Assembly: GCA_015068025.1 (NCBI GenBank)
Contig: SVLH01000019.1
Location: 1-33,078 of the forward strand
Length of the DNA stretch: 33,078 nucleotides
Source of the DNA: Oscillospiraceae bacterium
Lineage (GTDB): Bacteria > Bacillota > Clostridia > Oscillospirales > Oscillospiraceae
Direction: 5' to 3'
The notes beneath the pieces were generated by a model. The model did no database searches, was not told where the DNA came from, and saw only the letters and a list, made by a program, of their open reading frames with translations. Each line of letters starts with the position of its first letter. The stretch's first letter is position 1. The position numbers were made by a program, and so were the translations under genes. Shown piece after piece: positions 3,628-20,225 of the stretch.

Positions 3628-3679
3628 ATTCCGTTTATTTTGTTTGGTTTTCAGCCTAGCATTTTGTGAAAATTGACAG

Positions 3680-3708
3680 TTCCCATTTGACCCGCAAGGT
3701 GTTATTCT
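3680..3708 (+). promoter_or_regulatory. Probable promoter of the aro operon leader
   Basis: An extended -10 element (TG at 3700-3701, then TATTCT at 3703-3708) has a poor -35 match TTCCCA (3680-3685) at 17 bases. A good TTGACA at 3673-3678 is 24 bases from this -10, too far to use. Transcription would begin about 30 bases before the leader peptide start. Confidence 0.5.
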
Positions 3709-3741
3709 TTAAGCATCTAAAGTCCGAAAGGATCCGTATCC

Positions 3742-3840
3742 ATGAAGTCTGCCGCTCACTCTTTTGCATACCGTTATTTTGGCTTTACCTATTTTTATGG
3801 TAAGGCTTATTTCGGTTTGGCTGAAAGCACCGGGGTGTAA
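3742..3840 (+). CDS. Phe/Tyr-rich attenuator leader peptide of the aro operon
   Basis: A 32-codon open frame, ATG to TAA, preceded by AAAGGA (3727-3732, spacing 9). The central part reads FAYRYFGFTYFYGKAYF: ten aromatic residues (five Phe, five Tyr) in 17 codons, at codons 8, 10, 12, 13, 15, 17, 18, 19, 23 and 24, and no Trp. It ends 33 bases before an intrinsic terminator and 96 bases before aroF, the first enzyme of the pathway that makes Phe and Tyr. By analogy with pheA, trp and his leaders, ribosomes stalled for charged tRNA-Phe or tRNA-Tyr would change the folding of the downstream RNA. Eight of the ten aromatic codons are TTT or TAT, whereas aroF itself mainly uses TTC and TAC. The peptide itself is probably not functional. 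I do not know a named family for it. Confidence 0.88.
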   Translation: MKSAAHSFAYRYFGFTYFYGKAYFGLAESTGV

Positions 3841-3900
3841 GGTCAGGTTTCATTGAAACTGTTCGTACATGCAGACCCGCAGCCAGACCGGCTGCGGGTC
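3813..3900 (+). promoter_or_regulatory. Antiterminator pairing of the aro attenuator
   Basis: Bases 3814-3823 (ggtttggctg, inside leader codons 25-28) are complementary to 3880-3889 (cagccagacc), ten pairs with one G-U; C3813-G3890 adds one. This helix uses half of the terminator's 5' arm and all of its loop, so it excludes the terminator. A ribosome stalled on codons 10-19 (3769-3798) would leave 3814-3823 free, favouring readthrough. A ribosome reaching the stop codon at 3838 would tend to cover or sequester it, favouring termination. A weak local hairpin (3813-3816 with 3829-3832, plus 3820-3822 with 3826-3828) could also hold this strand when no ribosome stalls. Pairing is read directly; the dynamics are inference. 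Confidence 0.75.
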
Positions 3901-3907
3901 TTTTATT
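3874..3907 (+). terminator. Intrinsic terminator between leader peptide and aroF
   Basis: An 11-bp perfect stem (3874-3884 with 3890-3900), a five-base loop, then TTTTATT. It sits before the aroF start in the same transcript as the leader peptide, so it is an attenuator rather than an end-of-gene terminator. Confidence 0.92.
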
Positions 3908-3935
3908 CTAATGTGATTTGCCGGAGGGACCTATT

Positions 3936-4949
3936 ATGATCGTCATTCTGAAACACAACCCCAATCAGGATCAGCTCAAAAGCCTGATCTCCTGGCTGCA
4001 GGAGAAAGGCATCATCATTCACACCAGCATCGGCGAGGCGCACACCATTCTCGGTCTGGTGGGCGACACCTCCAAGCTGGACATCGACCTCATCGCCGCG
4101 CTGGACATCGTGGAGGACGTCAAGCGCGTGCAGGAGCCTTACAAAAACGCCAACCGCAAGTTCCATCCCGAGGACACCGTGGTCAAGGTGGGCAACACCC
4201 AGATCGGCGGCGGCACCCTGACCATCATGGCAGGCCCCTGCTCCGTGGAGTCCGAGGAGCAGGTGGTGGCCATCGCCAAGGCCGTCAAGGCCAGCGGCGC
4301 CACCATGCTGCGCGGCGGCGCCTTCAAGCCCCGCACCTCCCCCTACTCCTTCCAGGGTCTGGGCGCGCTGGGTCTGGAGTACCTGAAGGTCGCCCGTCAG
4401 GAGACCGGTCTGCCCATCGTCACCGAACTGATGGATTTGAGCCAGCTGCCCCTGTTCAAGGATGTGGACGTGATCCAGATCGGCGCGCGCAACATGCAGA
4501 ACTTTGACCTGCTCAAGGCCGTGGGCCATCAGGACAAGCCCGTGATGATCAAGCGCGGTATGTCCGCCACCTACGAGGAGTGGCTCATGAGCGCCGAGTA
4601 CGTCATGGCCGGCGGCAACGAAAACGTCATCCTCTGCGAGCGCGGCATCCGCACCTTTGAGACCCAGACCCGCAACACGCTGGATCTGGCCGCCATCCCC
4701 GTGATGAAGAAGCTGACCCATCTGCCCATCATCATCGACCCCAGCCACGCCACCGGCAAAAGCTGGCTGGTAGAGCCTCTTTCCATGGGCGCCGTAGCCA
4801 CCGGTGCGGACGGTCTGCAGATCGAAGTCCACAACGACCCCGCCCGCGCCCTGTGCGACGGCCCCCAGTCCCTCAAGCCCGAGGATTTCGACCCTCTGGC
4901 CAAGAAGCTGCTCAAGCTGCACAACATGATCCGCACGCTGGAGGATTGA
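3936..4949 (+). CDS. aroF: 3-deoxy-7-phosphoheptulonate synthase (DAHP synthase)
   Basis: First step of the shikimate pathway: PEP plus erythrose 4-phosphate gives DAHP. 337 residues. Residues 1-67 form a ferredoxin-like/ACT-like regulatory domain as in the Thermotoga-type (AroA Ibeta) enzymes; the catalytic TIM barrel follows with GPCSVES at 100-106 (Cys102 is the expected metal ligand), [16 protein letters not shown] around 128-143, and IDPSHATG near 268. ATG at 3936 is chosen over an in-frame ATG-less upstream extension because GGAGGG lies at 3923-3928. The N-terminal domain in this family gives feedback inhibition by Tyr or Phe, so the enzyme is likely controlled by product binding as well as by the attenuator. 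First gene of an eight-gene operon; tyrA follows four bases later. Confidence 0.96.
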
Positions 4950-4953
4950 TACG

Positions 4954-5790
4954 ATGAATATCGGCATCGTCGGCCTGGGCCTGATCGGCGGCTCTATGGC
5001 AAAAAGCACCAAGTCCCGCACCGCCCACACCGTCTGGGGCATCGATCTGGATCAGGAGACCATGATGATGGCCCGCATGTGCGGTGCCATCGACGCACCC
5101 CTGACGGAGGAAAATCTCCCCCTGTGCGATCTGATCCTTGTGGCCATCCGCCCCGGCGCCGCCGTGGAGTGGGTGCGGAAAAACAGTGAGCGCATTTCCC
5201 CCACCGCCATTGTGGTGGACCTGTGCGGCGTGAAGCGCACGGTGGTGGCGGCCATCACCCCCATAGCAGAAGCACGCGGCTTCGCCTACATCGGCGGACA
5301 CCCCATGGCCGGTAAGGAGATCGGCGGTTTCACCGCCGCTTCCGACAGCCTGTACGTGGGCGCATCCATGATCCTCACCCCGGACAAGCGCACGGATATG
5401 CTGCTGCTGGAGACTCTGAAGCATTTCTTCCTCGACATCGGCTTTGCCACCCTCACCTTCTCCGACCCCGAGGAACACGACCGCATCATCGCCTTTACCT
5501 CCCAGCTGGCGCACATCACCTCCAGCGCCTACGTCAAGTCCCCCGAAGCCCAGCGCCGACGCGGTTTTTCCGCCGGCAGCTTTAAGGATATGACCCGTGT
5601 GGCCCGTCTGGACGAGGATATGTGGACGGAGCTGTTCCTCGCCGACGCGGACTATCTGACGAAAGAACTGGATATCCTCATCGGCCACCTGTCCGAATAC
5701 TCCGCCGCCCTGAAAGCCGGAGATGCCGAGGCGCTGCACAAGCTGCTGAAAGACGGCCGGGAGAAAAAGGCTACGGCCGGAGGAAATTAA
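4954..5790 (+). CDS. tyrA: Prephenate dehydrogenase
   Basis: Oxidative decarboxylation of prephenate to 4-hydroxyphenylpyruvate, the tyrosine branch. 278 residues. The dinucleotide-binding glycine motif GLGLIGGS is at residues 7-14, and the segment GGHPMAGKE contains the conserved active-site His (H116). No fused chorismate mutase and no C-terminal ACT domain are present, so the enzyme is a minimal TyrA and tyrosine feedback, if any, must come from elsewhere (AroF or the leader). GGAGG of the aroF end serves as ribosome binding site. Whether it uses NAD or NADP, or prefers arogenate, cannot be told reliably from the sequence; Asp31 after the second beta strand (GIDLD) suggests NAD. Confidence 0.94.
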   Translation: MNIGIVGLGLIGGSMAKSTKSRTAHTVWGIDLDQETMMMARMCGAIDAPLTEENLPLCDLILVAIRPGAAVEWVRKNSERISPTAIVVDLCGVKRTVVAAITPIAEARGFAYIGGHPMAGKEIGGFTAASDSLYVGASMILTPDKRTDMLLLETLKHFFLDIGFATLTFSDPEEHDRIIAFTSQLAHITSSAYVKSPEAQRRRGFSAGSFKDMTRVARLDEDMWTELFLADADYLTKELDILIGHLSEYSAALKAGDAEALHKLLKDGREKKATAGGN

Positions 5791-5807: not shown

Positions 5808-6878
5808 ATGAAGAACTCCATCCGAACCATTCAAGTACACACCGTCCCCGCCTATGAAGTTTCCATCGGCGGCGGTCTGCTCCATACCTGCGGCCAGCAC
5901 CTCGCTCAGGTGCTGGCTCCCTGCCACGTTGCCGTCATTACCGACAGCACCGTGGCACCTTTGTATCTGGACACCGTGTGCGGCAGCCTGCGCAGCGCAG
6001 GCTTTGCCGTCAGCTCCTATGTATTCCCCGCCGGAGAACAGCACAAGCACATCGGCACCTTCGCCGCCATTCTGGAGTTTCTGGCGGAGCAGCGCCTGAC
6101 CCGCACCGACTGCATTGCCGCTCTGGGCGGCGGCGTGGTGGGCGACATGGCAGGCTTTGCCGCCGCCGCCTATCTGCGGGGCATTCGCTGTGTGCAGCTG
6201 CCCACCACCCTGCTCTCCGCCGTGGACTCCTCCGTGGGCGGCAAGACCGCCATTGACCTGAAGGCCGGCAAGAATCTGGCCGGTGCCTTTTTGCAGCCCG
6301 CCGCCGTGCTGTGCGACACGGACTGCCTCGCCTCCCTGCCCGCCGAGGTCTTTGCCGACGGCGCCGCCGAGGCCATCAAGACCGGCATCCTCTGTGATGA
6401 GAGCCTGTTCACCCTCTTTGAGGACGGCACACTGACTGCCGACCCGGCAGAGATCATCGCCCGGTGCGTGGCCTACAAGGCCGGCGTGGTGGAACGGGAC
6501 GAAAAGGAGCAAAACGAGCGCCGCTTGCTGAATCTGGGTCACACTGTGGGCCACGCCATTGAAAAGTGCAGCGGCTACGCCATCCCCCACGGCCACGCCG
6601 TGGCGGCAGGCCTTGCCATCATGGCACGCAGTGCGGAAGCGCTGGGCTGGACCGACGAGCCCGTTGCGGCCCGCATCACTGCCTGCCTTGCCAAAAACGG
6701 TCTGCCCACCTCCACCGACTATTCCGCACAAGACCTCGCCCACGCCGCCTCCGCCGACAAAAAGCGCGCCGGCAGCGACATCACACTGGTCATCCCGAAA
6801 AAAATTGGCTGCTGTGAACTGAAAAAAGTCCCGGTAACGGAGCTGCTGCCCATCATCGCCGCAGGATTGGAGGGCTGA
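5808..6878 (+). CDS. aroB: 3-dehydroquinate synthase
   Basis: Converts DAHP to 3-dehydroquinate, the second shikimate step, using NAD and a divalent metal (usually zinc). 356 residues, the normal length. The motif ALGGGVVGDMAGFAAAAYLRG near residues 104-124 is the nucleotide/substrate region, KTAIDLKAGKN near 147 and NLGHTVGHAIE near 244 holds the metal-binding His. The ATG at 5808 follows AAGGAG at 5795-5800. A longer frame reaching back to 5622 overlaps tyrA and has no support. It sits 17 bases after tyrA and one base before aroA. Confidence 0.96.
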   Translation: MKNSIRTIQVHTVPAYEVSIGGGLLHTCGQHLAQVLAPCHVAVITDSTVAPLYLDTVCGSLRSAGFAVSSYVFPAGEQHKHIGTFAAILEFLAEQRLTRTDCIAALGGGVVGDMAGFAAAAYLRGIRCVQLPTTLLSAVDSSVGGKTAIDLKAGKNLAGAFLQPAAVLCDTDCLASLPAEVFADGAAEAIKTGILCDESLFTLFEDGTLTADPAEIIARCVAYKAGVVERDEKEQNERRLLNLGHTVGHAIEKCSGYAIPHGHAVAAGLAIMARSAEALGWTDEPVAARITACLAKNGLPTSTDYSAQDLAHAASADKKRAGSDITLVIPKKIGCCELKKVPVTELLPIIAAGLEG

Positions 6879-6879
6879 T

Positions 6880-8115
6880 ATGGACATCCGCATCACACCC
6901 CACACCCTCTCCGGCGCAGTCACGCCGCCGGCCAGCAAATCCATGGCGCACCGCCTCATTATCGCCGCGGCTCTGGGCGGCGGCATCTGCACCATCGCCA
7001 ACGCAGCCTCCTCTCAAGACATCGAGGCCACGCTCCGCTGCATGGCGGCTATGGGCACCGGGATCGAACATGTGGGCGACCGCACGCTCCGCATTCACGG
7101 TCTCGGCCACTCGATCCCACAGGCCGGCATTCCCGACGGTCTCCTTCATTTTGACTGCGGCGAGTCCGGCTCTACCCTCCGCTTTCTCATCCCCATCGCG
7201 CTGGCGGTGGCGGGCGGCGGCGTATTCACCGGTCGGGGACGGCTCATGGAGCGCCCCCAGAAGCCCTACTTCGATATTTTTGAGGAAAAAGGCATCCATT
7301 ACGAACAAAAGGACGGTATCCTTACCGTCCGCGGACAGCTTACCCCCGGCATCTACCGTCTGCCCGGCAACGTGTCCAGCCAGTTCGTCACCGGCCTGCT
7401 CTACGCCCTGCCGCTGCTTGACGGCGATTCCGAGATTGTGATGACCTCGCCGCTGGAGTCCCGGGGGTACGTGGATATGACGCTGGATACTTTGAAGCAG
7501 TTCGGCATCCGGGTGGAACACGAAGAATATGCCCGTTTCCGCATCGGCGGCAATCAGGTCTATCAGGGCACGGACGTCACCGTGGAAGCCGACTGGTCGC
7601 AGGCCGGTTTCTGGTATGCCGCCGCCTTTCTGGACAACCCCGTGACGGTACAGGGGATGAACCCCCGCTCCGTGCAGGGCGACATGGTAGTTTCTGACCT
7701 GTACTGGAAACTCGCAAGACCCGGCGACATCGAGGTCGACATCTCCGACTGTCCCGATCTGCTGCCGCCGCTCTCTGTCATGGCCGCCGTGCGCAATGGG
7801 ATGACCCGGTTCACCGGCGCCGCCCGCCTGCGCATCAAAGAGAGCGACCGCCTTGCCACGGTAAGCGCCATGCTGACGGCGCTTGGCGGCTTCGTGGAGG
7901 AGTTCCCCGATGCGCTGACCGTTCACGGAGGAATCCCCCTCACAGGCGGCACCGTGGATGGCGCCAACGACCACCGCATCGTGATGGCGGCAGCCATTGC
8001 CGCCACGGCCTGCACCGCACCTGTCACCGTTCTGGGGGCGGAGGCTGTTAAAAAATCCTATCCCACGTTCTGGGAAGACTACAAAAAGCTGGGAGGTGTC
8101 CTCCATGTCCTCTGA
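6880..8115 (+). CDS. aroA: 3-phosphoshikimate 1-carboxyvinyltransferase (EPSP synthase)
   Basis: Transfers the enolpyruvyl group of PEP to shikimate 3-phosphate. 411 residues, slightly shorter than the usual 420-440. PASKSMAHR at residues 17-25 holds the conserved Lys20; FDCGESGSTLRF near 90 corresponds to the first EPSP synthase signature, and RIKESDRLATV near 315 to the second; DHRIVMA near 371 is the late active-site motif. At the first signature this protein has GESGSTLR, where many class I enzymes have GNAGTAMR; class II, glyphosate-tolerant enzymes show this kind of Ser-Thr-Leu-Arg variant, so class II is the likely type. Start ATG overlaps nothing and lies two bases after the aroB stop; its end overlaps aroC by 11 bases. 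Confidence 0.95.
   Translation: MDIRITPHTLSGAVTPPASKSMAHRLIIAAALGGGICTIANAASSQDIEATLRCMAAMGTGIEHVGDRTLRIHGLGHSIPQAGIPDGLLHFDCGESGSTLRFLIPIALAVAGGGVFTGRGRLMERPQKPYFDIFEEKGIHYEQKDGILTVRGQLTPGIYRLPGNVSSQFVTGLLYALPLLDGDSEIVMTSPLESRGYVDMTLDTLKQFGIRVEHEEYARFRIGGNQVYQGTDVTVEADWSQAGFWYAAAFLDNPVTVQGMNPRSVQGDMVVSDLYWKLARPGDIEVDISDCPDLLPPLSVMAAVRNGMTRFTGAARLRIKESDRLATVSAMLTALGGFVEEFPDALTVHGGIPLTGGTVDGANDHRIVMAAAIAATACTAPVTVLGAEAVKKSYPTFWEDYKKLGGVLHVL
8092..8107 (+). promoter_or_regulatory. Ribosome binding site of aroC inside a small hairpin
   Basis: GGAGG (8092-8096) is followed after three bases by CCTCC (8100-8104), directly before the aroC ATG at 8105. The five-pair hairpin would mask the ribosome binding site until ribosomes finishing aroA (stop at 8113-8115) open it, which suggests translational coupling of aroC to aroA. 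Confidence 0.5.
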
Positions 8116-9196
8116 ATTTGGAAAACTGCTGCGCATCGCTGTCTTCGGTCAGTCTCACGGCAAGGCCATTGGCGTGAACATCGACGGTCTGCCTGCAGGT
8201 GAAGCCATCGACACCGAGGCGTTGTATGCCTTTATGAGCCGCAGAAAGCCCGGCGGCAATCCCCTCTCCACCGCCCGGAAGGAGACGGATCTGCCCATTT
8301 TCCTCTCCGGCGTGGAAAACGGCGTGACCTGCGGCGCACCGCTGTGCGCCATCATTGAAAACAGCGACCAGCACTCCGGCGACTACGCCAAACTGGCCGA
8401 CACACCCCGCCCCTCCCATGCAGACTACACCGCATGGGTCAAGTGGGGCGGACAGGCGGATATGCGGGGCGGCGGACACTTCTCCGGCCGGCTTACCGCA
8501 CCGCTTTGCATCGCAGGCGGCATCGCCAAGCAGATCCTTGCCCGCCGCAGCATTTATGTTGGCGCGCACCTGGCCTCCGTGGGCGCGGAGCAGGACGCCG
8601 CCTTCCCCCTGCATCCCACAGCAGAACTGTTTGACGCTGTGGCCGCCAAGCCCTTCCCCGTGCTGGATGACGCCGCAGGCGAGCGGATGCAGCAGGTGAT
8701 TCTGGACGCCCGGCAGAATCTGGACTCCGTGGGCGGCGTCATCGAGTGCGCTGCCATCGGCCTGCCCGCAGGTCTTGGCGACCCTATGTTTGACGGCATC
8801 GAAAATCGCCTTGCCGCCGCCCTGTTCGGCATCCCGGCCGTCAAGGGCGTGGAGTTCGGTCTGGGCTTTGGCTCGGCACTTTTGCGGGGCAGCGAAAACA
8901 ACGATGCTTTCCGCATGGAAAACAGCGCCGTCACCGCCGAAACCAACCGCGCAGGCGGCATCCTCGGCGGCATCACCACCGGAATGCCGGTGACGCTGCG
9001 TGTGGCCATCAAGCCCACGCCGTCCATCGGGCAGACGCAGCGCACCGTAAATCTGGCCGACGGCGAAAACACCGAACTGGTCATTGGCGGGCGGCACGAT
9101 CCCTGCATCGCACACCGCGCCGTCCCCGTTGTGGAGGCGGTCACGGCCGCCGTACTGTTAGACATCTTATTGGAGGGTAATCATGGATCTTTCTGA
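8105..9196 (+). CDS. aroC: Chorismate synthase
   Basis: Last common step: EPSP to chorismate, requiring reduced FMN. 363 residues, typical length. Three family motifs are visible: GQSHGKAIG at residues 15-23, RGGGHFSGRLTAP near 120, and RHDPCIAHRAVPVVEA near the C-terminus. ATG at 8105 lies inside the end of aroA and has GGAGG 8 bases upstream (in a small hairpin). It overlaps pheA by 14 bases, so the three genes aroA, aroC and pheA are likely translated in a coupled way. No flavin reductase domain is fused, so it is a monofunctional enzyme depending on cellular reduced flavin, as usual in anaerobes. Confidence 0.96.
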   Translation: MSSEFGKLLRIAVFGQSHGKAIGVNIDGLPAGEAIDTEALYAFMSRRKPGGNPLSTARKETDLPIFLSGVENGVTCGAPLCAIIENSDQHSGDYAKLADTPRPSHADYTAWVKWGGQADMRGGGHFSGRLTAPLCIAGGIAKQILARRSIYVGAHLASVGAEQDAAFPLHPTAELFDAVAAKPFPVLDDAAGERMQQVILDARQNLDSVGGVIECAAIGLPAGLGDPMFDGIENRLAAALFGIPAVKGVEFGLGFGSALLRGSENNDAFRMENSAVTAETNRAGGILGGITTGMPVTLRVAIKPTPSIGQTQRTVNLADGENTELVIGGRHDPCIAHRAVPVVEAVTAAVLLDILLEGNHGSF

Positions 9197-10319
9197 AATT
9201 CGCACCAAAATCGACGCCGTGGACGATCAGCTGCTGCAGCTGTTTCTGGAACGCATGGCGCTGGCCGAGGAAGTGGCCGCATACAAAAACGAACACCACC
9301 TCCCCATCCTGAACAAGCAGCGGGAACGGGAAGTGCTTGCCAAAGTCACGGAAAAGGCCGGTGACAAGGAGCGCTACGCCTACCACCTCTATTCCACCCT
9401 GTTCGAGCTGGCCCGCTCCCGGCAGGCGGAACTGATCTCCGCGCCCACCCGTGTGGCGGCGCAGGTGAAGGCCTCCCTCGCCGCCGGCAGCGATATCTTC
9501 CCCCAGACGGGTCTGGTGGCCTGTCAGGGTGTGGAGGGCGCCAACTCACAGGTGGCCTGCGACCGTCTGCTGCCCCGGGGCAACATCGTATTCGTCAAGA
9601 CCTTTGACGCCGTGGTGTCCGCCGTGGAGTCCGGTTTGTGCAAATTCGGCGTGCTGCCCATCGAAAACAGCTCCAACGGCTCCGTCCGCGCCGTGTACGA
9701 ACTGCTGCAGGATCACAAGCTGTCCATCGTCCGCTCCACCCGGCTGTGCATCCGCCACGAACTGCTCTCTCTGCCCGGCGTGAAGATGGAGGACATTACC
9801 GAAATTTACTCCCACCAGCAGGCCATCGGCCAGTGCAGCAAATTCCTGAACAGCCTCAACGGCGTCCATGTCATCCCCTGCGACAACACCGCCATGGCCG
9901 CTAAAATGGTGGCAGACGCCGGCAACCGCCACGCCGCCGCCATCTCCTCTCACCCCTGCGCCGCTCTGTACGGTCTGGAGTGCATCAACGACTCCATTCA
10001 GGACAGCGACAACAACTACACCCGCTTCATCTGCGTGTCCAAAGACCCCGTCATTTACTCCGGTGCCAACCGCATCAGCCTCATCGTGTCCACGGACAAC
10101 AAGCCCGGCGCCCTTTACGAGATCCTCTCCAAGCTGGCGGCTCTGGGCATCAACATGACCAAGCTGGAATCCTGCCCCGTAACGGGCCGGAACTTTGAGT
10201 TCATCTTCTTCCTTGAGATCGAGGCCTCCGTACAGGAGCCCAGCGTGATGGCCATGCTGCAGGAGCTGGAGCGCAACTGCAGCGGCTTCCAGTATCTGGG
10301 CGCTTACGCAGAGATCTGA
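9183..10319 (+). CDS. pheA: Bifunctional chorismate mutase / prephenate dehydratase (P-protein)
   Basis: Makes prephenate from chorismate, then phenylpyruvate. 378 residues. Domains in order: an AroQ-type chorismate mutase helix bundle (about 1-90, beginning DLSEIRTKIDAVDDQLLQLF, with the conserved Arg and Lys in ERMALAEEVAAYK), prephenate dehydratase (about 105-285, ending in the NNYTRF motif with the catalytic Thr), and a C-terminal ACT domain (about 295-375). The ACT domain carries ESCP where most PheA proteins have ESRP, the loop involved in Phe binding; GALYEIL (GAL motif) is intact. Feedback inhibition by Phe is expected, perhaps altered. It also supplies prephenate for TyrA, which lacks a mutase domain. 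Ribosome binding site GGAGGG is in the end of aroC. Confidence 0.95.
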   Translation: MDLSEIRTKIDAVDDQLLQLFLERMALAEEVAAYKNEHHLPILNKQREREVLAKVTEKAGDKERYAYHLYSTLFELARSRQAELISAPTRVAAQVKASLAAGSDIFPQTGLVACQGVEGANSQVACDRLLPRGNIVFVKTFDAVVSAVESGLCKFGVLPIENSSNGSVRAVYELLQDHKLSIVRSTRLCIRHELLSLPGVKMEDITEIYSHQQAIGQCSKFLNSLNGVHVIPCDNTAMAAKMVADAGNRHAAAISSHPCAALYGLECINDSIQDSDNNYTRFICVSKDPVIYSGANRISLIVSTDNKPGALYEILSKLAALGINMTKLESCPVTGRNFEFIFFLEIEASVQEPSVMAMLQELERNCSGFQYLGAYAEI

Positions 10320-10320
10320 T

Positions 10321-11565
10321 ATGGAGAACAAAATTTACGGCCTGCTGGGCCGCAAGCTGGGGCACAGCTGGTCTGCCCCCATCCACGCCGCTCTGGGCTG
10401 CGAGGGCTACCGGCTCATCGAACTGGAGCCGGAGGAGCTGGAAGCATTTCTCTCCCGCAGCGACATCGGCGGATTGAACGTCACCATCCCCTACAAGCGG
10501 GATGTGATGGCGTACTGCGATGTGATCGATGACGCTGCCCGCGCCATCGGCAGCGTCAACACCCTCGCCCGCCGCAGCGACGGCAAGCTGTATGCGTGGA
10601 ACACCGACGCCATCGGTCTGCTCTGGATGGCAAAGCGGGCAGGCATCACCTTTCAGGGCAGGAAGGTTATCATCCTCGGCAGCGGCGGCGCCTCCCTGAC
10701 GGCGCAGGCCGTGGCCCGCACGCAGGGGGCAAGGGCTGTGGTTGTCGTTTCCCGCTCCGGGGAGGACAACTACGAAAATCTTGACCGCCACGCCGACGCC
10801 GACATCATCGTGAACACCACGCCGGTGGGCATGTTCCCCCACACCGGCGAAGCGCCTGTGGATCTCACCGCCTTTCCCGCCTGCCGGGGCGTGCTGGACG
10901 TTGTTTACAACCCCCGCCGCACCGCATTGCTGCTGCAGGCAGAGCGGCTGGGCATCCCCTGCAGCGACGGACTGCCCATGCTGGTGGCGCAGGCCAAAGC
11001 CGCCGAGGAGTTCTTTTTCGACAAACCCATTCCTGACAGCGAAAATGAGCGCATTCTCGCCATGCTGCGCAAGGAAATGACCAACATTGTACTCATCGGC
11101 ATGCCCGGCTGCGGCAAGACCACGGTGGGGCAGGCGCTTGCGCGGCTGACGGGACGGGAGGCCATTGATCTGGATGCGTGCATCGTGGAGAAGGCAGGCT
11201 GCTCCATTCCCGACATTTTTGTCCGGGACGGCGAGGCCGCTTTCCGGGCGCTGGAACGGGACGTGACCGCAGAGATCGGCAAGCTGTCCGGCAAGATCAT
11301 CCTCACCGGCGGCGGCGTGGTAAAAGATCCGCGCAACTACGCTCCGCTCCACCAGAACGGCCGCATTTACCATCTCATGCGGGATTTGGATGCCCTGCCC
11401 ACCGCCGGGCGGCCCCTGTCCCAGACCACGGCGCTCTCCGCCCTGTGGGAAGAGCGCAAAGCAATGTACGAAGCGTTCCGTGACGAAGTGATCGACAACA
11501 ACGGCTCGGTGGAGGAAACCGCCGCAGCCATCTGGAGGGATTTTTGTGAAAATTCTGGTGCTTAA
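10321..11565 (+). CDS. aroE-aroK: Fused shikimate dehydrogenase - shikimate kinase
   Basis: 414 residues carrying two pathway enzymes. Residues 1 to about 245 are shikimate dehydrogenase: GHSWSAPIH (14-22) binds shikimate, NVTIPYK has the catalytic Lys59, NTDAIG the partner Asp96, GSGGAS (120-125) the NADP loop. Residues about 253-414 are shikimate kinase: Walker A GMPGCGKTT (260-268), IDLDACI for shikimate contact, LTGGGVV and GRPL near the lid. The join is short, with the link around residues 243-252 (PIPDSENERI...). The kinase begins exactly at an internal ATG (11077) preceded by AAGGA, so a free kinase could also be made. Some Clostridia keep separate aroE and aroK genes; here no other copy lies in the window. 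Starts one base after pheA; overlaps aroQ by 20 bases. Confidence 0.93.
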   Translation: MENKIYGLLGRKLGHSWSAPIHAALGCEGYRLIELEPEELEAFLSRSDIGGLNVTIPYKRDVMAYCDVIDDAARAIGSVNTLARRSDGKLYAWNTDAIGLLWMAKRAGITFQGRKVIILGSGGASLTAQAVARTQGARAVVVVSRSGEDNYENLDRHADADIIVNTTPVGMFPHTGEAPVDLTAFPACRGVLDVVYNPRRTALLLQAERLGIPCSDGLPMLVAQAKAAEEFFFDKPIPDSENERILAMLRKEMTNIVLIGMPGCGKTTVGQALARLTGREAIDLDACIVEKAGCSIPDIFVRDGEAAFRALERDVTAEIGKLSGKIILTGGGVVKDPRNYAPLHQNGRIYHLMRDLDALPTAGRPLSQTTALSALWEERKAMYEAFRDEVIDNNGSVEETAAAIWRDFCENSGA

Positions 11566-11974
11566 CGGGCCCAACATGAACATGCTGGGCATCCGCCAGC
11601 CGGAGATCTACGGCAAGGCCACCTACAACGACCTGCTGGACATGATCCGGACCAAAGCCGATGCGCTGGGCGTAGAGGTCGCCTTCTTCCAGTCCAACCA
11701 CGAGGGTGCGCTGGTGGACGCCATCCAGCAGGCCTACTTTGACAAGATCGACGGCATCATCATCAACCCGGCCGCCTACACCCACACCAGCGTGGCGCTG
11801 CTGGACGCCGTGAAGGCGGTGGGCATTCCCACGGTGGAGGTGCATGTCTCCGATCCCGACAGCCGGGAGGAGTTCCGCCACGTATCCTACATCCGCGCCG
11901 CCTGCGTGGGCACCATCCGCGGACACGGCCTGAACGGGTATCTGGAAGCGCTGGAGCTGCTGTGCAGCCGGTAA
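11546..11974 (+). CDS. aroQ: Type II 3-dehydroquinate dehydratase
   Basis: Dehydrates 3-dehydroquinate to 3-dehydroshikimate. The 142-residue length and the N-terminal ILVLNGPNMNMLGIRQPEIYG mark the type II (dodecameric) enzyme; Arg17 and Tyr22 are the expected catalytic pair, NPAAYTHTS near 73 and VEVHVSDP near 97 complete the active site. The start is GTG at 11546 inside the end of the aroE-aroK fusion, with GGAGGG upstream. Last gene of the operon, followed by two strong hairpins. A type I enzyme (AroD) would be about 250 residues with a Schiff-base Lys; that is excluded. Confidence 0.96.
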   Translation: MKILVLNGPNMNMLGIRQPEIYGKATYNDLLDMIRTKADALGVEVAFFQSNHEGALVDAIQQAYFDKIDGIIINPAAYTHTSVALLDAVKAVGIPTVEVHVSDPDSREEFRHVSYIRAACVGTIRGHGLNGYLEALELLCSR

Positions 11975-17618: not shown

Positions 17619-18368
17619 ATGGCAATCGTATATGAAAAGTCCCGCGGCCTGACCGACGCCGAATTGCACTACTGCCCCGGCTGCCACCACGGCATCATCC
17701 ACAAGCTGGTGGCGGAATCTCTGGTGGAGCTGGGTCTGCTGGACGAGGCCATCGGCGTGTGTCCCGTGGGCTGCTCCGTTCTGGCCTTCAATTACTTCAA
17801 CTGCGATATGCAGGAGGCCGCCCACGGCCGTGCCCCTGCCGTTGCCACCGGCATCAAGCGCACCCATCCCAATCAGGCCGTCTTTACCTATCAGGGCGAC
17901 GGCGATCTGGCCTCCATCGGTGCGGGCGAGATCGTTCACGCCGCGATGCGCGGCGAAAAGTTCACCACCATCTTCGTCAACAACGCCATTTACGGCATGA
18001 CCGGCGGTCAGATGGCGCCCACCACCCTGATCGGTCAGAAGGCCACCACCTGCCCCGGCGGCCGTGACGCCGCGCAGGCCGGTATGCCCATCCGCGTGGC
18101 GGAGATGCTCTCCACGCTGGACGGCTGCGTCTACGCCGAGCGCGTGTGCGTTACCGACATCGCCAACCTGAACAAGGCCAAGCGCGCTATCAAGAAGGCC
18201 TTTGAGAAGCAGATGGCCGGTGAGGGCTTCACCTTCATCGAAGTCCTGTCCACCTGCCCCACCAACTGGGGCATGACGCCGCTGAAGGCCAACGAGTGGC
18301 TGAAAACCGAGATGGCGGCCTACTATCCTCTGGGCGTGATCAAGGACAACACTGCGGAGGTGAAGTAA
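17619..18368 (+). CDS. vorA: 2-oxoacid:ferredoxin oxidoreductase, beta (TPP-binding) subunit
   Basis: 249 residues. CPGCHHG (about 19-25) is the conserved N-terminal Cys motif; GDGDLASIGAGE followed by NNAIYGMTGGQ is the TPP/magnesium motif (GDG-x about 26-NN). Domain is the C-terminal-like pyrophosphate-binding half that pairs with VorB in the active site. The 2-oxoacid is decarboxylated to an acyl-CoA with reduction of ferredoxin. The motif GMTGGQMAPTT is shared by VOR and KOR enzymes. One base separates it from both neighbours, so the subunits are made stoichiometrically. Confidence 0.92.
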   Translation: MAIVYEKSRGLTDAELHYCPGCHHGIIHKLVAESLVELGLLDEAIGVCPVGCSVLAFNYFNCDMQEAAHGRAPAVATGIKRTHPNQAVFTYQGDGDLASIGAGEIVHAAMRGEKFTTIFVNNAIYGMTGGQMAPTTLIGQKATTCPGGRDAAQAGMPIRVAEMLSTLDGCVYAERVCVTDIANLNKAKRAIKKAFEKQMAGEGFTFIEVLSTCPTNWGMTPLKANEWLKTEMAAYYPLGVIKDNTAEVK

Positions 18369-18369
18369 C

Positions 18370-18906
18370 ATGAAGAAAGAAGTCATCATTTCCGGTTTTG
18401 GCGGACAGGGCGGTCTGGCCATCGGCAAGAATCTGGTGGAAGCCGGTCTGGCCGAGGGGCTGAACGTGACCTGGGCGCCTTCCTACGGCCCCGAAATGCG
18501 CGGCGGCACCGCCAACTGCTCCGTCGTCCTCTCCGACAAGCCCGTCGGCTCTCCCGTGTTCAACCACTCCACCGAGCTGATCGCCCTCAATGAGCCTTCT
18601 CTGGCAAAATTCGAAGCCGGCGTTCTGCCCGGCGGAACCGTGTTCGTCAACTCCTCCGTGGTCACCGACAGGGTCTCCCGGGACGACCTGACCGCTTACT
18701 ACATCCCCTGCGGCCAGATCGCCGAGGAGATCGGCAACAGCAAGGTCGCCAACATGGTCATGCTGGGCGCCTACGTGGCCGCCACCGGCGTGCTGAAACC
18801 GGAGACCATCGAGGCCATGATCGCAGAGATGTTTGCCGGCGCCAAGGCGAAGTTCATCCCCCTGAACATCGAGGCCTTCCGCCGCGGAATGGCCTGCGTG
18901 AAATAA
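18370..18906 (+). CDS. vorC: 2-oxoacid:ferredoxin oxidoreductase, gamma subunit
   Basis: 178 residues, starting EVIISGFGGQGGLAIGKNLVEAG, the glycine-rich N-terminus typical of the gamma domain of the superfamily, with YGPEMRGGTANCSVVLSD at about 38-55. This domain is thought to take part in CoA binding. It completes the delta-alpha-beta-gamma set; a GC-rich hairpin follows. Subunit lettering differs between organisms, so the symbol is only indicative. Confidence 0.9.
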   Translation: MKKEVIISGFGGQGGLAIGKNLVEAGLAEGLNVTWAPSYGPEMRGGTANCSVVLSDKPVGSPVFNHSTELIALNEPSLAKFEAGVLPGGTVFVNSSVVTDRVSRDDLTAYYIPCGQIAEEIGNSKVANMVMLGAYVAATGVLKPETIEAMIAEMFAGAKAKFIPLNIEAFRRGMACVK

Positions 18907-18916
18907 CGCTTTCCCC

Positions 18917-18949
18917 GCCGCGGGCCGCACCATGCCGCCGGCCCGCGGC
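18917..18949 (+). terminator. GC-rich hairpin after the oxidoreductase operon
   Basis: Ten-base perfect arms (18917-18926 with 18940-18949) with a 13-base loop, 10 bases after the last stop. The following bases are only weakly T-rich, so it may be a partial terminator or a 3' end stabiliser. Confidence 0.5.
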
Positions 18950-18975
18950 TTCCTCGTTCCGCGGTGCGATTCCCC

Positions 18976-19004
18976 TTGACTTTGCCACACAATCAGCGTA
19001 TAAA
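18976..19004 (+). promoter_or_regulatory. Promoter of ilvE
   Basis: TTGACT (18976-18981), 17 bases, TATAAA (18999-19004). It gives a leader of about 138 bases before the ilvE start. Confidence 0.85.
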
Positions 19005-19058
19005 AGGAAGTAAGATTGGCGAATTGTCGGAACGAAAGCAGACGCGCCACGGATGTGT

Positions 19059-19105
19059 GACTTTCGCCTCTCCCTGCGAAACGGGACTGCGCGAAAGTCT
19101 TTTTT
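19059..19105 (+). terminator. Terminator inside the ilvE leader, with competing pairings
   Basis: GACTTTCGC (19059-19067) pairs perfectly with GCGAAAGTC (19091-19099), followed by six T (19100-19105). It lies between the ilvE promoter and the ilvE ribosome binding site, so the leader is a candidate attenuator. The strand CTTTCG can also pair with CGAAAG at 19033-19038 or with GCGAAA at 19076-19081; both would exclude the terminator. No T-box motif and no branched-chain-rich leader peptide is present. Confidence 0.65.
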
Positions 19106-19148
19106 GTTTTCGTTTCCGAACATCACTCGTATAAAGGAGAAATTTACA

Positions 19149-20225
19149 ATGCTGGACATCAAGATCGTCAGAACGACCACCCCCAAGACCAAGCCCGCCG
19201 ACGAAACCAAGCTGGGCTTCGGTAAGATCTCCTCCGACCACATGTTCCTGATGGATTACAGCGTGGAACAGGGCTGGCACGATCCCCGCATCGTCCCCTA
19301 CGCCCCCTTCCAGCTGGACCCCGCCTGCGTGGTGTTCCACTATGCACAGGAGTTGTTTGAGGGCATGAAGGCCTACCGCACCGAAGACAACAAGATCCAG
19401 CTATTCCGTCCCGAGTGCAACGCCCAGCGCATGCAGGACTCCTCCGAGCGTCTGTGCATCCCCACCATCCCCGTGGAGGACTATGTGCAGGCCGTGAAGG
19501 CTCTGGTGGAAGTGGAAAAGGACTGGGTGCCCTACACCTACGGCGCTTCCCTGTACATCCGTCCCTTCGTCATCGCCACCGACGTTGGCATGGGCGTCCA
19601 CGCCAGCCACACCTATACCTTCTGCATCATCGCCTTCCCCTCCGGCGCCTACTATGCCGAGGGCATCAATCCCGTGCGCATCTACGTCGAGGATGAGTAC
19701 ATCCGTGCCGCTCCCGGCCTGACCGGCTACACCAAGTGCGGCGGCAACTACGCTGCCTCCATCAAGGCCGGCGAAGTGGCCGCCCAGAAGGGCTTCGCCC
19801 AGGTGCTGTGGCTGGACGGCGTGGAGCGCAAGTATGTGGAAGAAGTCGGCGCGATGAACATCTTCTTCAAGATCGACGGCAAGGTCTACACCGCCGCCTG
19901 CACCGGCACCGTGCTGCCCGGCGTCACCCGCCGCAGCTGCATCGAGCTGCTGCGCGACTGGGGCTACGAGGTCATCGAGGGCAAGCTGGCCATCGCCGAC
20001 ATCATGGAAGCCAGCCGCAACGGCAAGCTGGAGGAGGTCTTCGGCACCGGCACCGCCGCCGTCATCTCCCCCGTCAAGGAGCTGTGCTGGAAGGACGAGT
20101 CCGCCTTCATCGGCGGCGGCGTCATCGGCCCCGTCACCCAGAAGCTGTATGACGTGATGACCGGCATCCAGTGGGGCAAGGTGGCCGACGAAAAGGGCTG
20201 GATCGTTCCCGTCTGCCAGGGCTGA
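19149..20225 (+). CDS. ilvE: Branched-chain amino acid aminotransferase
   Basis: PLP enzyme exchanging the amino group between Leu, Ile or Val and 2-oxoglutarate. 358 residues, the length of the group II (BCAT, fold type IV) enzymes. Lys196 in TKCGGNYAAS is the Schiff-base Lys; GMKAY with its Arg neighbours, the EVGAMNIFF segment and GTGTAAVISPV near the C-terminus are family motifs. ATG at 19149 follows AAAGGAG; the frame is open upstream to 19053 but that part lies in the terminator hairpin. It is separate from the oxidoreductase operon and has its own promoter and leader. Functionally, it connects amino acids to the 2-oxo acids used by the neighbouring VOR-like enzyme. Confidence 0.95.
   Translation: MLDIKIVRTTTPKTKPADETKLGFGKISSDHMFLMDYSVEQGWHDPRIVPYAPFQLDPACVVFHYAQELFEGMKAYRTEDNKIQLFRPECNAQRMQDSSERLCIPTIPVEDYVQAVKALVEVEKDWVPYTYGASLYIRPFVIATDVGMGVHASHTYTFCIIAFPSGAYYAEGINPVRIYVEDEYIRAAPGLTGYTKCGGNYAASIKAGEVAAQKGFAQVLWLDGVERKYVEEVGAMNIFFKIDGKVYTAACTGTVLPGVTRRSCIELLRDWGYEVIEGKLAIADIMEASRNGKLEEVFGTGTAAVISPVKELCWKDESAFIGGGVIGPVTQKLYDVMTGIQWGKVADEKGWIVPVCQG

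Follow-up and report, generated by a model that had tools for sequence, protein, structure and literature searches.

Leader-peptide attenuators are known classically from the trp, his, and pheA operons of Proteobacteria and are represented by trpL, hisL, and pheL of Escherichia coli; in the E. coli trp attenuator, segment 2 is shared between hairpins. For the amino acid operons of Bacillota, the usual textbook picture is the T-box: in T-box leaders, tRNA charging sets the choice between terminator and antiterminator via direct tRNA binding, with no translated ORF involved.

The earlier note on the DNA analysed here followed this division, treating peptide attenuators as classical in Proteobacteria and Bacillota as usually relying on T-boxes or TRAP. 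T-boxes are indeed common in the genus genomes, but leader-peptide attenuation is not foreign to Bacillota, as several sources indicate (PMC5794164, PMC9413887, PMC2965389, PMC8632094). A leucine-rich attenuator peptide of the ilv-leu operon in Staphylococcus aureus is supported by suppressor mutations in the leader region (PMC5794164). Predictions of His leader attenuators exist for the B. cereus group, Peptostreptococcaceae, and Erysipelotrichales (PMC9413887; PMC2965389), PMC4833913 mentions C. difficile hisZ and Lactococcus lactis lysQ, and PMC1262725 covers Actinobacteria. For aroF itself, uORFC-13-1 of Acholeplasma was described as a predicted uORF that contains one or more Phe codons and lies directly before a terminator, and attenuation was proposed; its 24 representatives are restricted to Acholeplasma and environmental sequences, and the description mentions at least one Phe residue and no Tyr (PMC8632094).

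Here, we analyse a leader found in a window of 33,078 nucleotides (the whole stretch of DNA studied) from an Oscillospiraceae bacterium. Like E. coli trpL, hisL, and pheL, it combines a short ORF rich in regulatory codons, a terminator, a mutually exclusive antiterminator, and an operon of the same pathway; unlike them, it unites Phe and Tyr codons in one leader and precedes the shikimate trunk genes together with tyrA and pheA. With uORFC-13-1 it shares a Phe-coding uORF and a terminator before aroF, the two being compared by description only (PMC8632094). The S. aureus ilv-leu leader is likewise a case of leader-peptide attenuation in Bacillota, although for other amino acids, another operon, and the class Bacilli (PMC5794164), and the Bacillota His leaders are also predicted ribosome-mediated attenuators, although for histidine and in narrow species groups (PMC9413887; PMC2965389). 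The T-box (RF00230) makes the same choice between terminator and antiterminator by tRNA charging but has no match at the aro locus. The mechanism itself is textbook, and what seems to be new is a broad leader family of Clostridia residing on the shikimate operon. In the literature consulted, which mostly excluded subscription papers, we came across no description of a Phe/Tyr leader in front of aroF in Clostridia; related predictions could be contained in two papers referenced in PMC4833913 and PMC1262725, Lopatovskaya et al. (2010) and Panina et al. (2003).

Results

The leader ORF (positions 3742–3840, plus strand, as are all features below) starts with ATG, comprises 32 codons encoding the peptide MKSAAHSFAYRYFGFTYFYGKAYFGLAESTGV, and is kept in the genus. 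In its segment FAYRYFGFTYFYGKAYF, Phe or Tyr occupies 10 of 17 residues and Trp none, and the Shine–Dalgarno sequence GAAAGGA (3726–3732) lies nine bases upstream of the start codon. All these elements had been reported in the earlier note and were recovered as described; together, they give the locus a short ORF that appears to be translated and in which codons for the products of the pathway are clustered. No other ORF of this kind (six or more Phe/Tyr within a 15-codon stretch, together with a Shine–Dalgarno sequence) occurs on either strand of the window.

Downstream of the leader, eight genes form the aro/tyrA/pheA operon. The first is aroF for DAHP synthase (3936–4949; NCBIfam NF006421 and TIGR01361 over cut-off), followed by tyrA for prephenate dehydrogenase (4954–5790; NCBIfam NF006307, E 4e-46, under the curated cut-off), aroB for 3-dehydroquinate synthase (5808–6878, the likely start, since the open frame extends farther upstream; TIGR01357 over cut-off), aroA for EPSP synthase (6880–8115; TIGR01356 over cut-off), and aroC for chorismate synthase (8105–9196, likely start; NF003793 over cut-off). 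The operon ends with pheA for chorismate mutase/prephenate dehydratase (9183–10,319; NF008866 and NF007910, both under curated cut-offs), an aroE–aroK fusion with shikimate dehydrogenase and shikimate kinase domains (10,321–11,565; TIGR00507 at residues 4–234 and NF010553 at residues 253–411, under cut-offs), and aroQ for type II 3-dehydroquinate dehydratase (11,546–11,974; NF003806 and TIGR01088 over cut-off).

Between the leader ORF and aroF, an intrinsic terminator is located (3873–3905). Its stem-loop (3873–3901) consists of arms 3873–3884 and 3890–3901 with a five-base loop and is followed by a T-rich tail beginning with TTTATTC. We count 12 pairs and thus 32 bases from the end of the ORF to the stem; the earlier figures of 11 pairs and 33 bases describe the same terminator with a stem one pair shorter. 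The alternative pairing suggested for 3814–3823 and 3880–3889 is present as well: GGTTTGGCTG (3814–3823), the 5' arm of the antiterminator, and CAGCCAGACC (3880–3889), its 3' arm, form ten complementary pairs, one of them G-U. The 3' arm overlaps the 5' arm and the loop of the terminator, and the antiterminator pairing occupies this loop and the top of this arm, so the two structures are mutually exclusive. Among 51 genus sequences, 97.6% of the antiterminator cells are paired. Inside the ORF lies a further hairpin, P1 (3782–3806), in which 3782–3789 pair with 3799–3806 (8 pairs); all of its cells (100%) are paired in the same 51 sequences. The RNA 3720–3912 as a whole folds better than 200 of 200 shuffles (z −5.2), part of this being contributed by the terminator. 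A helix P0 (TACCG with CGGTT around P1) also appears in folds, but was rejected because its register shifts between subgroups.

Covariation of the helices was assessed at two evolutionary distances. In the 51 genus sequences, 6 of the 11 counted terminator pairs are altered on both sides, and with terminator and P1 counted together this level was reached by 0 of 500 shuffles; P1 itself is nearly invariant and so yields no covariation evidence. The antiterminator is too conserved for its covariation within the genus to be significant (score reached by 41 of 500 shuffles), which is why it was addressed by a cross-genus test, in which the region around the ORF end was paired with the terminator loop and upper arm in 104 diverged leaders at most 50% identical. 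Mean pairing energy was −12.1 kcal/mol with a leader's own terminator vs. −8.2 kcal/mol with those of others, and none of 10,000 permutations was as good (z −17.7). The own leader was the top partner for 16 of the 104 terminators and ranked within the best five for 44, and the antiterminator surpassed dinucleotide shuffles (p < 0.05) in 61 of these leaders. The expectation that both helices covary thus held for the terminator within the genus and for the antiterminator across the diverged leaders, but not for the antiterminator within the genus.

This pairing bears on whether the operon could be controlled by a T-box, a protein such as TRAP, or a metabolite riboswitch, the ORF being incidental. 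T-boxes are frequent enough to make such control conceivable: a match occurs in 61 of 61 genus genomes (59 over cut-off), and a T-box stands upstream of trpE at 2 of 20 trp loci. In the window, no Rfam family reached its gathering score, including the T-box (RF00230) and the listed leader-peptide families, e.g., the proteobacterial Phe leader, and no family except one tRNA was over threshold at 20 aroF loci, 16 of which are loci without the leader. The covariation of the leader arm with the terminator loop also speaks against this explanation, which we regard as extremely improbable. Since T-boxes are found genus-wide and upstream of some trpE genes, both modes of control would coexist in these bacteria.

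Codon usage of the leader indicates why the end of its peptide is conserved. The antiterminator arm is encoded by GGT (50 of 51 Gly), TTG (46 of 46 Leu), and GCT (48 of 51 Ala) across the genus, codons that represent only 14, 5, and 8%, respectively, of those for their amino acids in the window's operon. The codons of the P1 arms are fixed as well, but no such restriction applies to Tyr in the P1 loop, which is encoded by either codon (21 TAC, 18 TAT). Because the arm codons are fixed in spite of being rare and the loop codon is free, the conservation of the peptide tail is mainly an RNA constraint.

The same data permit evaluation of nascent-chain arrest, as in TnaC, which responds to Trp: the leader peptide, perhaps together with Phe, Tyr, or chorismate, would stall the ribosome, and the Phe/Tyr residues would serve as an arrest motif rather than as a sensor of tRNA charging. 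Such a role could account for the strong conservation of the core AEYRYFSFTYFxGKAYFGLAE as a peptide within the genus, for the retention of GKA by some leaders outside it, and for the WARF or SAGYF-like motifs kept by another subtype. However, the best-conserved residues, G-K-A and G-L-A, fall on the RNA arms, where rare codons are fixed down to the third base, and peptides from different families share little besides Phe/Tyr (99 of the 104 representatives, at most 50% identical, contain at least two of each). Arrest by the peptide is therefore improbable in our opinion, and we retain tRNA charging as the likely signal.

The consequences of ribosome stalling were modelled by masking the ribosome footprint and folding the RNA at the moment when the terminator loop is made. 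In the genus, the predicted mean probability of the antiterminator was 0.87 with a stall in the Phe/Tyr cluster (at least 0.5 in 49 of 51 sequences) and 0.07 with the ribosome at the stop codon (1 of 51). When the RNA was cut at the leading edge of the ribosome, all 51 sequences were predicted to reach at least 0.5 for some stall at codons 9–18. Among the 104 diverged leaders, the modelled probability was at least 0.5 in 80 (median over stalls at Phe/Tyr codons) and in 9 with the ribosome at the stop; in the remaining 24, a typical stall is not predicted to favour the antiterminator. In these leaders, the upstream distance from the arm is sufficient for 848 of 925 Phe/Tyr codons.

Two properties of the model qualify this picture. 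Once the full terminator is made, the predicted equilibrium favours it in both states, the mean probability of the antiterminator being 0.03 even with a stall. With no ribosome on the RNA, the antiterminator is predicted to be favoured already in 22 of the 51 leaders from the genus and in 36 of the 104 diverged ones, so the untranslated state is, according to the model, not uniformly “off”. P1 does not contain the antiterminator arm and in this genus differs from the E. coli trp attenuator with its shared segment 2; a ribosome-mediated attenuator would be expected to have a 1:2 hairpin that sequesters the arm when the leader is untranslated.

The model also suggests that stalls outside the Phe/Tyr codons may free the arm: permissive positions in the genus include 646 of 1113 other codons along with 356 of 440 Phe/Tyr codons. 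This would suit a general sensor of translation rate or coupling, in which any slowing of the ribosome, by antibiotics included, opens the operon and the aromatic codons add little specificity. Yet Phe/Tyr density is kept across families while the remaining peptide changes, and the genes downstream make Phe and Tyr; we consider a general sensor even less probable than peptide arrest, and return to a specific response to charged Phe and Tyr tRNAs.

Occurrence of the leader was analysed at increasing taxonomic distances. An AroF search gave matches in 54 of 61 genus genomes, and one aroF locus per genome was taken (54 loci); 87 loci were added from the family, 56 from the order plus class, 40 further from the class, and 29 from the phylum. 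One locus with less than 250 nt upstream was dropped from each of the genus, family, order-plus-class, and phylum sets (the genus one, L054, has only 200 nt before the contig end). A Phe/Tyr-rich leader, defined as above, was present together with a terminator at 52 of 53 genus loci, and a leader was found at 70 of 86 family, 46 of 55 order-plus-class, 13 of 40 further class, and 10 of 28 phylum loci, frequencies that are not unbiased rates because the loci were chosen mainly by aroF score rather than randomly. Altogether, the leader precedes aroF at 191 of 262 loci, being missing from 71 by the same criteria, and a terminator accompanies 189 of the 191. Rather than a peculiarity of one window, the leader thus extends across many families of Clostridia.

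At least two Phe and at least two Tyr are present in 179 of the 189 leaders with a terminator, and Trp in 28; Phe/Tyr content alone is not independent evidence since the leaders were selected on it. Of 1720 dinucleotide shuffles of family upstream regions, about 0.5% satisfied the leader definition, as did none of 45 upstream regions of trpE or hisG in related genomes. The latter control omits L357 and L401, whose upstream DNA is incomplete (L357 has 614 nt, and a scan of its whole locus was empty). The search of related genomes recommended in the earlier note thus returned the expected frames, and orthologous leaders devoid of aromatic codons or of the alternative pairing, which that note regarded as contrary to its proposal, were looked for; instead, the codons recur and the pairing covaries among the diverged leaders.

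Within the genus, L051 is the locus without a leader, and L053 carries an equally Phe/Tyr-rich leader unrelated to the others, MANVFFGIYYFYFTMQS. Scanning the genome collection for the RNA core revealed 89 stretches, 85 of which have aroF within the following 1500 bases. As for the other four, the sequence of L119 ends 112 bases past the match start, L110, with 301 bases, is ambiguous, and the matches in L096 and L134 resemble chance matches in coding DNA. The core is carried by Oscillibacter, Dysosmobacter, and other Oscillospiraceae, including the complete chromosome of O. valericigenes Sjm18-20 and Flintibacter muris DSM 110149.

A second leader subtype is characterised by a conserved [GS]WARF motif, usually followed by a glycine/aromatic segment (YARF without Trp in L217). 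It was detected at L199, L201, L202, L204, L207, L216, L217, L220, L222–L225, and L230, where it precedes a second type of aroF starting with MVVVMKPG or similar; SAGYF-type leaders akin to it occur in other families.

A scan for a sigma-70 promoter by strict consensus gave no match. A candidate extended −10 element, TGTTATTCT (3700–3708), emerged from comparison, since TGnTATnCT is found at the matching place in 48 of 54 genus upstream regions. In these 48 regions, it is preceded by a conserved block with the consensus TTTGnnnnAAnTnACAnTTnYCATTT (3663–3688), which, judged by sequence, is possibly an operator together with a weak −35. Of 41 genomes, 12 contain the strict pattern of this block, each a single time and always a few hundred bases upstream of the genome's aroF match. 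The stretch from the leader stop to the terminator (3838–3873 and its relatives) is variable and in many genus members resembles a local hairpin; it is followed by a conserved stretch similar to GTACATGA.

Discussion

The presented data make it highly probable that the operon is governed by ribosome-mediated transcription attenuation sensing charged Phe and Tyr tRNAs, as judged from sequence comparison and folding models. A ribosome would translate the 32-codon peptide at the same time as RNA polymerase transcribes the leader. With both Phe-tRNA and Tyr-tRNA charged, the ribosome would pass the aromatic cluster, reach the stop codon, and cover the 5' arm of the antiterminator, which sits in the Gly-Leu-Ala codons; the terminator hairpin would then form and transcription would end just past 3901. 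If either tRNA is poorly charged, we infer that the ribosome stalls over the Phe/Tyr codons, so that 3814–3823 would stay free and pair with the terminator loop and upper 5' arm immediately upon their synthesis, and the polymerase would read through into the aro-tyrA-pheA operon. Since the finished terminator is more stable at equilibrium, the antiterminator must win kinetically, and this kinetic advantage is assumed in our model. Translation of the leader is thus most likely what decides whether the pathway genes are transcribed, and the operon would respond to the supply of Phe and Tyr. The ORF, the two alternative structures, their conservation and covariation, and their geometry, on which this scheme is built, are features of the compared sequences themselves.

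At a broader scale, we incline, by a modest margin of confidence, to the view that Phe/Tyr attenuation is a widespread and possibly ancestral control of the shikimate entry enzyme in Clostridia, existing beside T-boxes and of separate origin from the proteobacterial attenuators, with at least two leader subtypes associated with different aroF types (GKA/GLA with Phe/Tyr only, and WARF/SAGYF often with Trp in addition). With a leader-peptide family that extends over many families of Clostridia, aromatic amino acid synthesis in major gut bacteria would be annotated and modelled differently. About a hundred diverged attenuators would form a natural series for comparing codon choice, arm position, and terminator loop, and the family would exemplify the sensing of two amino acids by a single peptide.

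The lack of Trp codons in the window's leader may be considered together with the Trp pathway. A trpE gene was detected in 8 of 41 genus genomes (40 of the 41 with completeness of at least 90% and contamination of no more than 5%) and, among family genomes, in 15 of 41. Most of these genus members probably synthesise Phe and Tyr and lack the ability to make Trp, and the small number of trpE-bearing genomes fits a leader without Trp codons. The 33 mostly near-complete genus genomes without a trpE match suggest that Trp auxotrophy is common.

In a divergent genus member (G009, contig C17), trpE (18,078–19,445) is located just upstream of aroF (20,364), and the leader has Trp. Whether Trp in the leader goes together with a trpE gene was considered, but no clear relationship emerged: G081 and G088 have leaders containing Trp and no trpE match.

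A Trp- or His-rich leader with a Shine–Dalgarno sequence was found before none of 17 trpE loci, while the 30 hisG loci yielded one clear His leader. This leader (L402, genome G070) is a His-rich ORF with a Shine–Dalgarno sequence, encoding MTRFGLFIHAHADVHHHHAHCIRHVDKRVLQVL and extending from 326 to 224 nt upstream of the hisG match.
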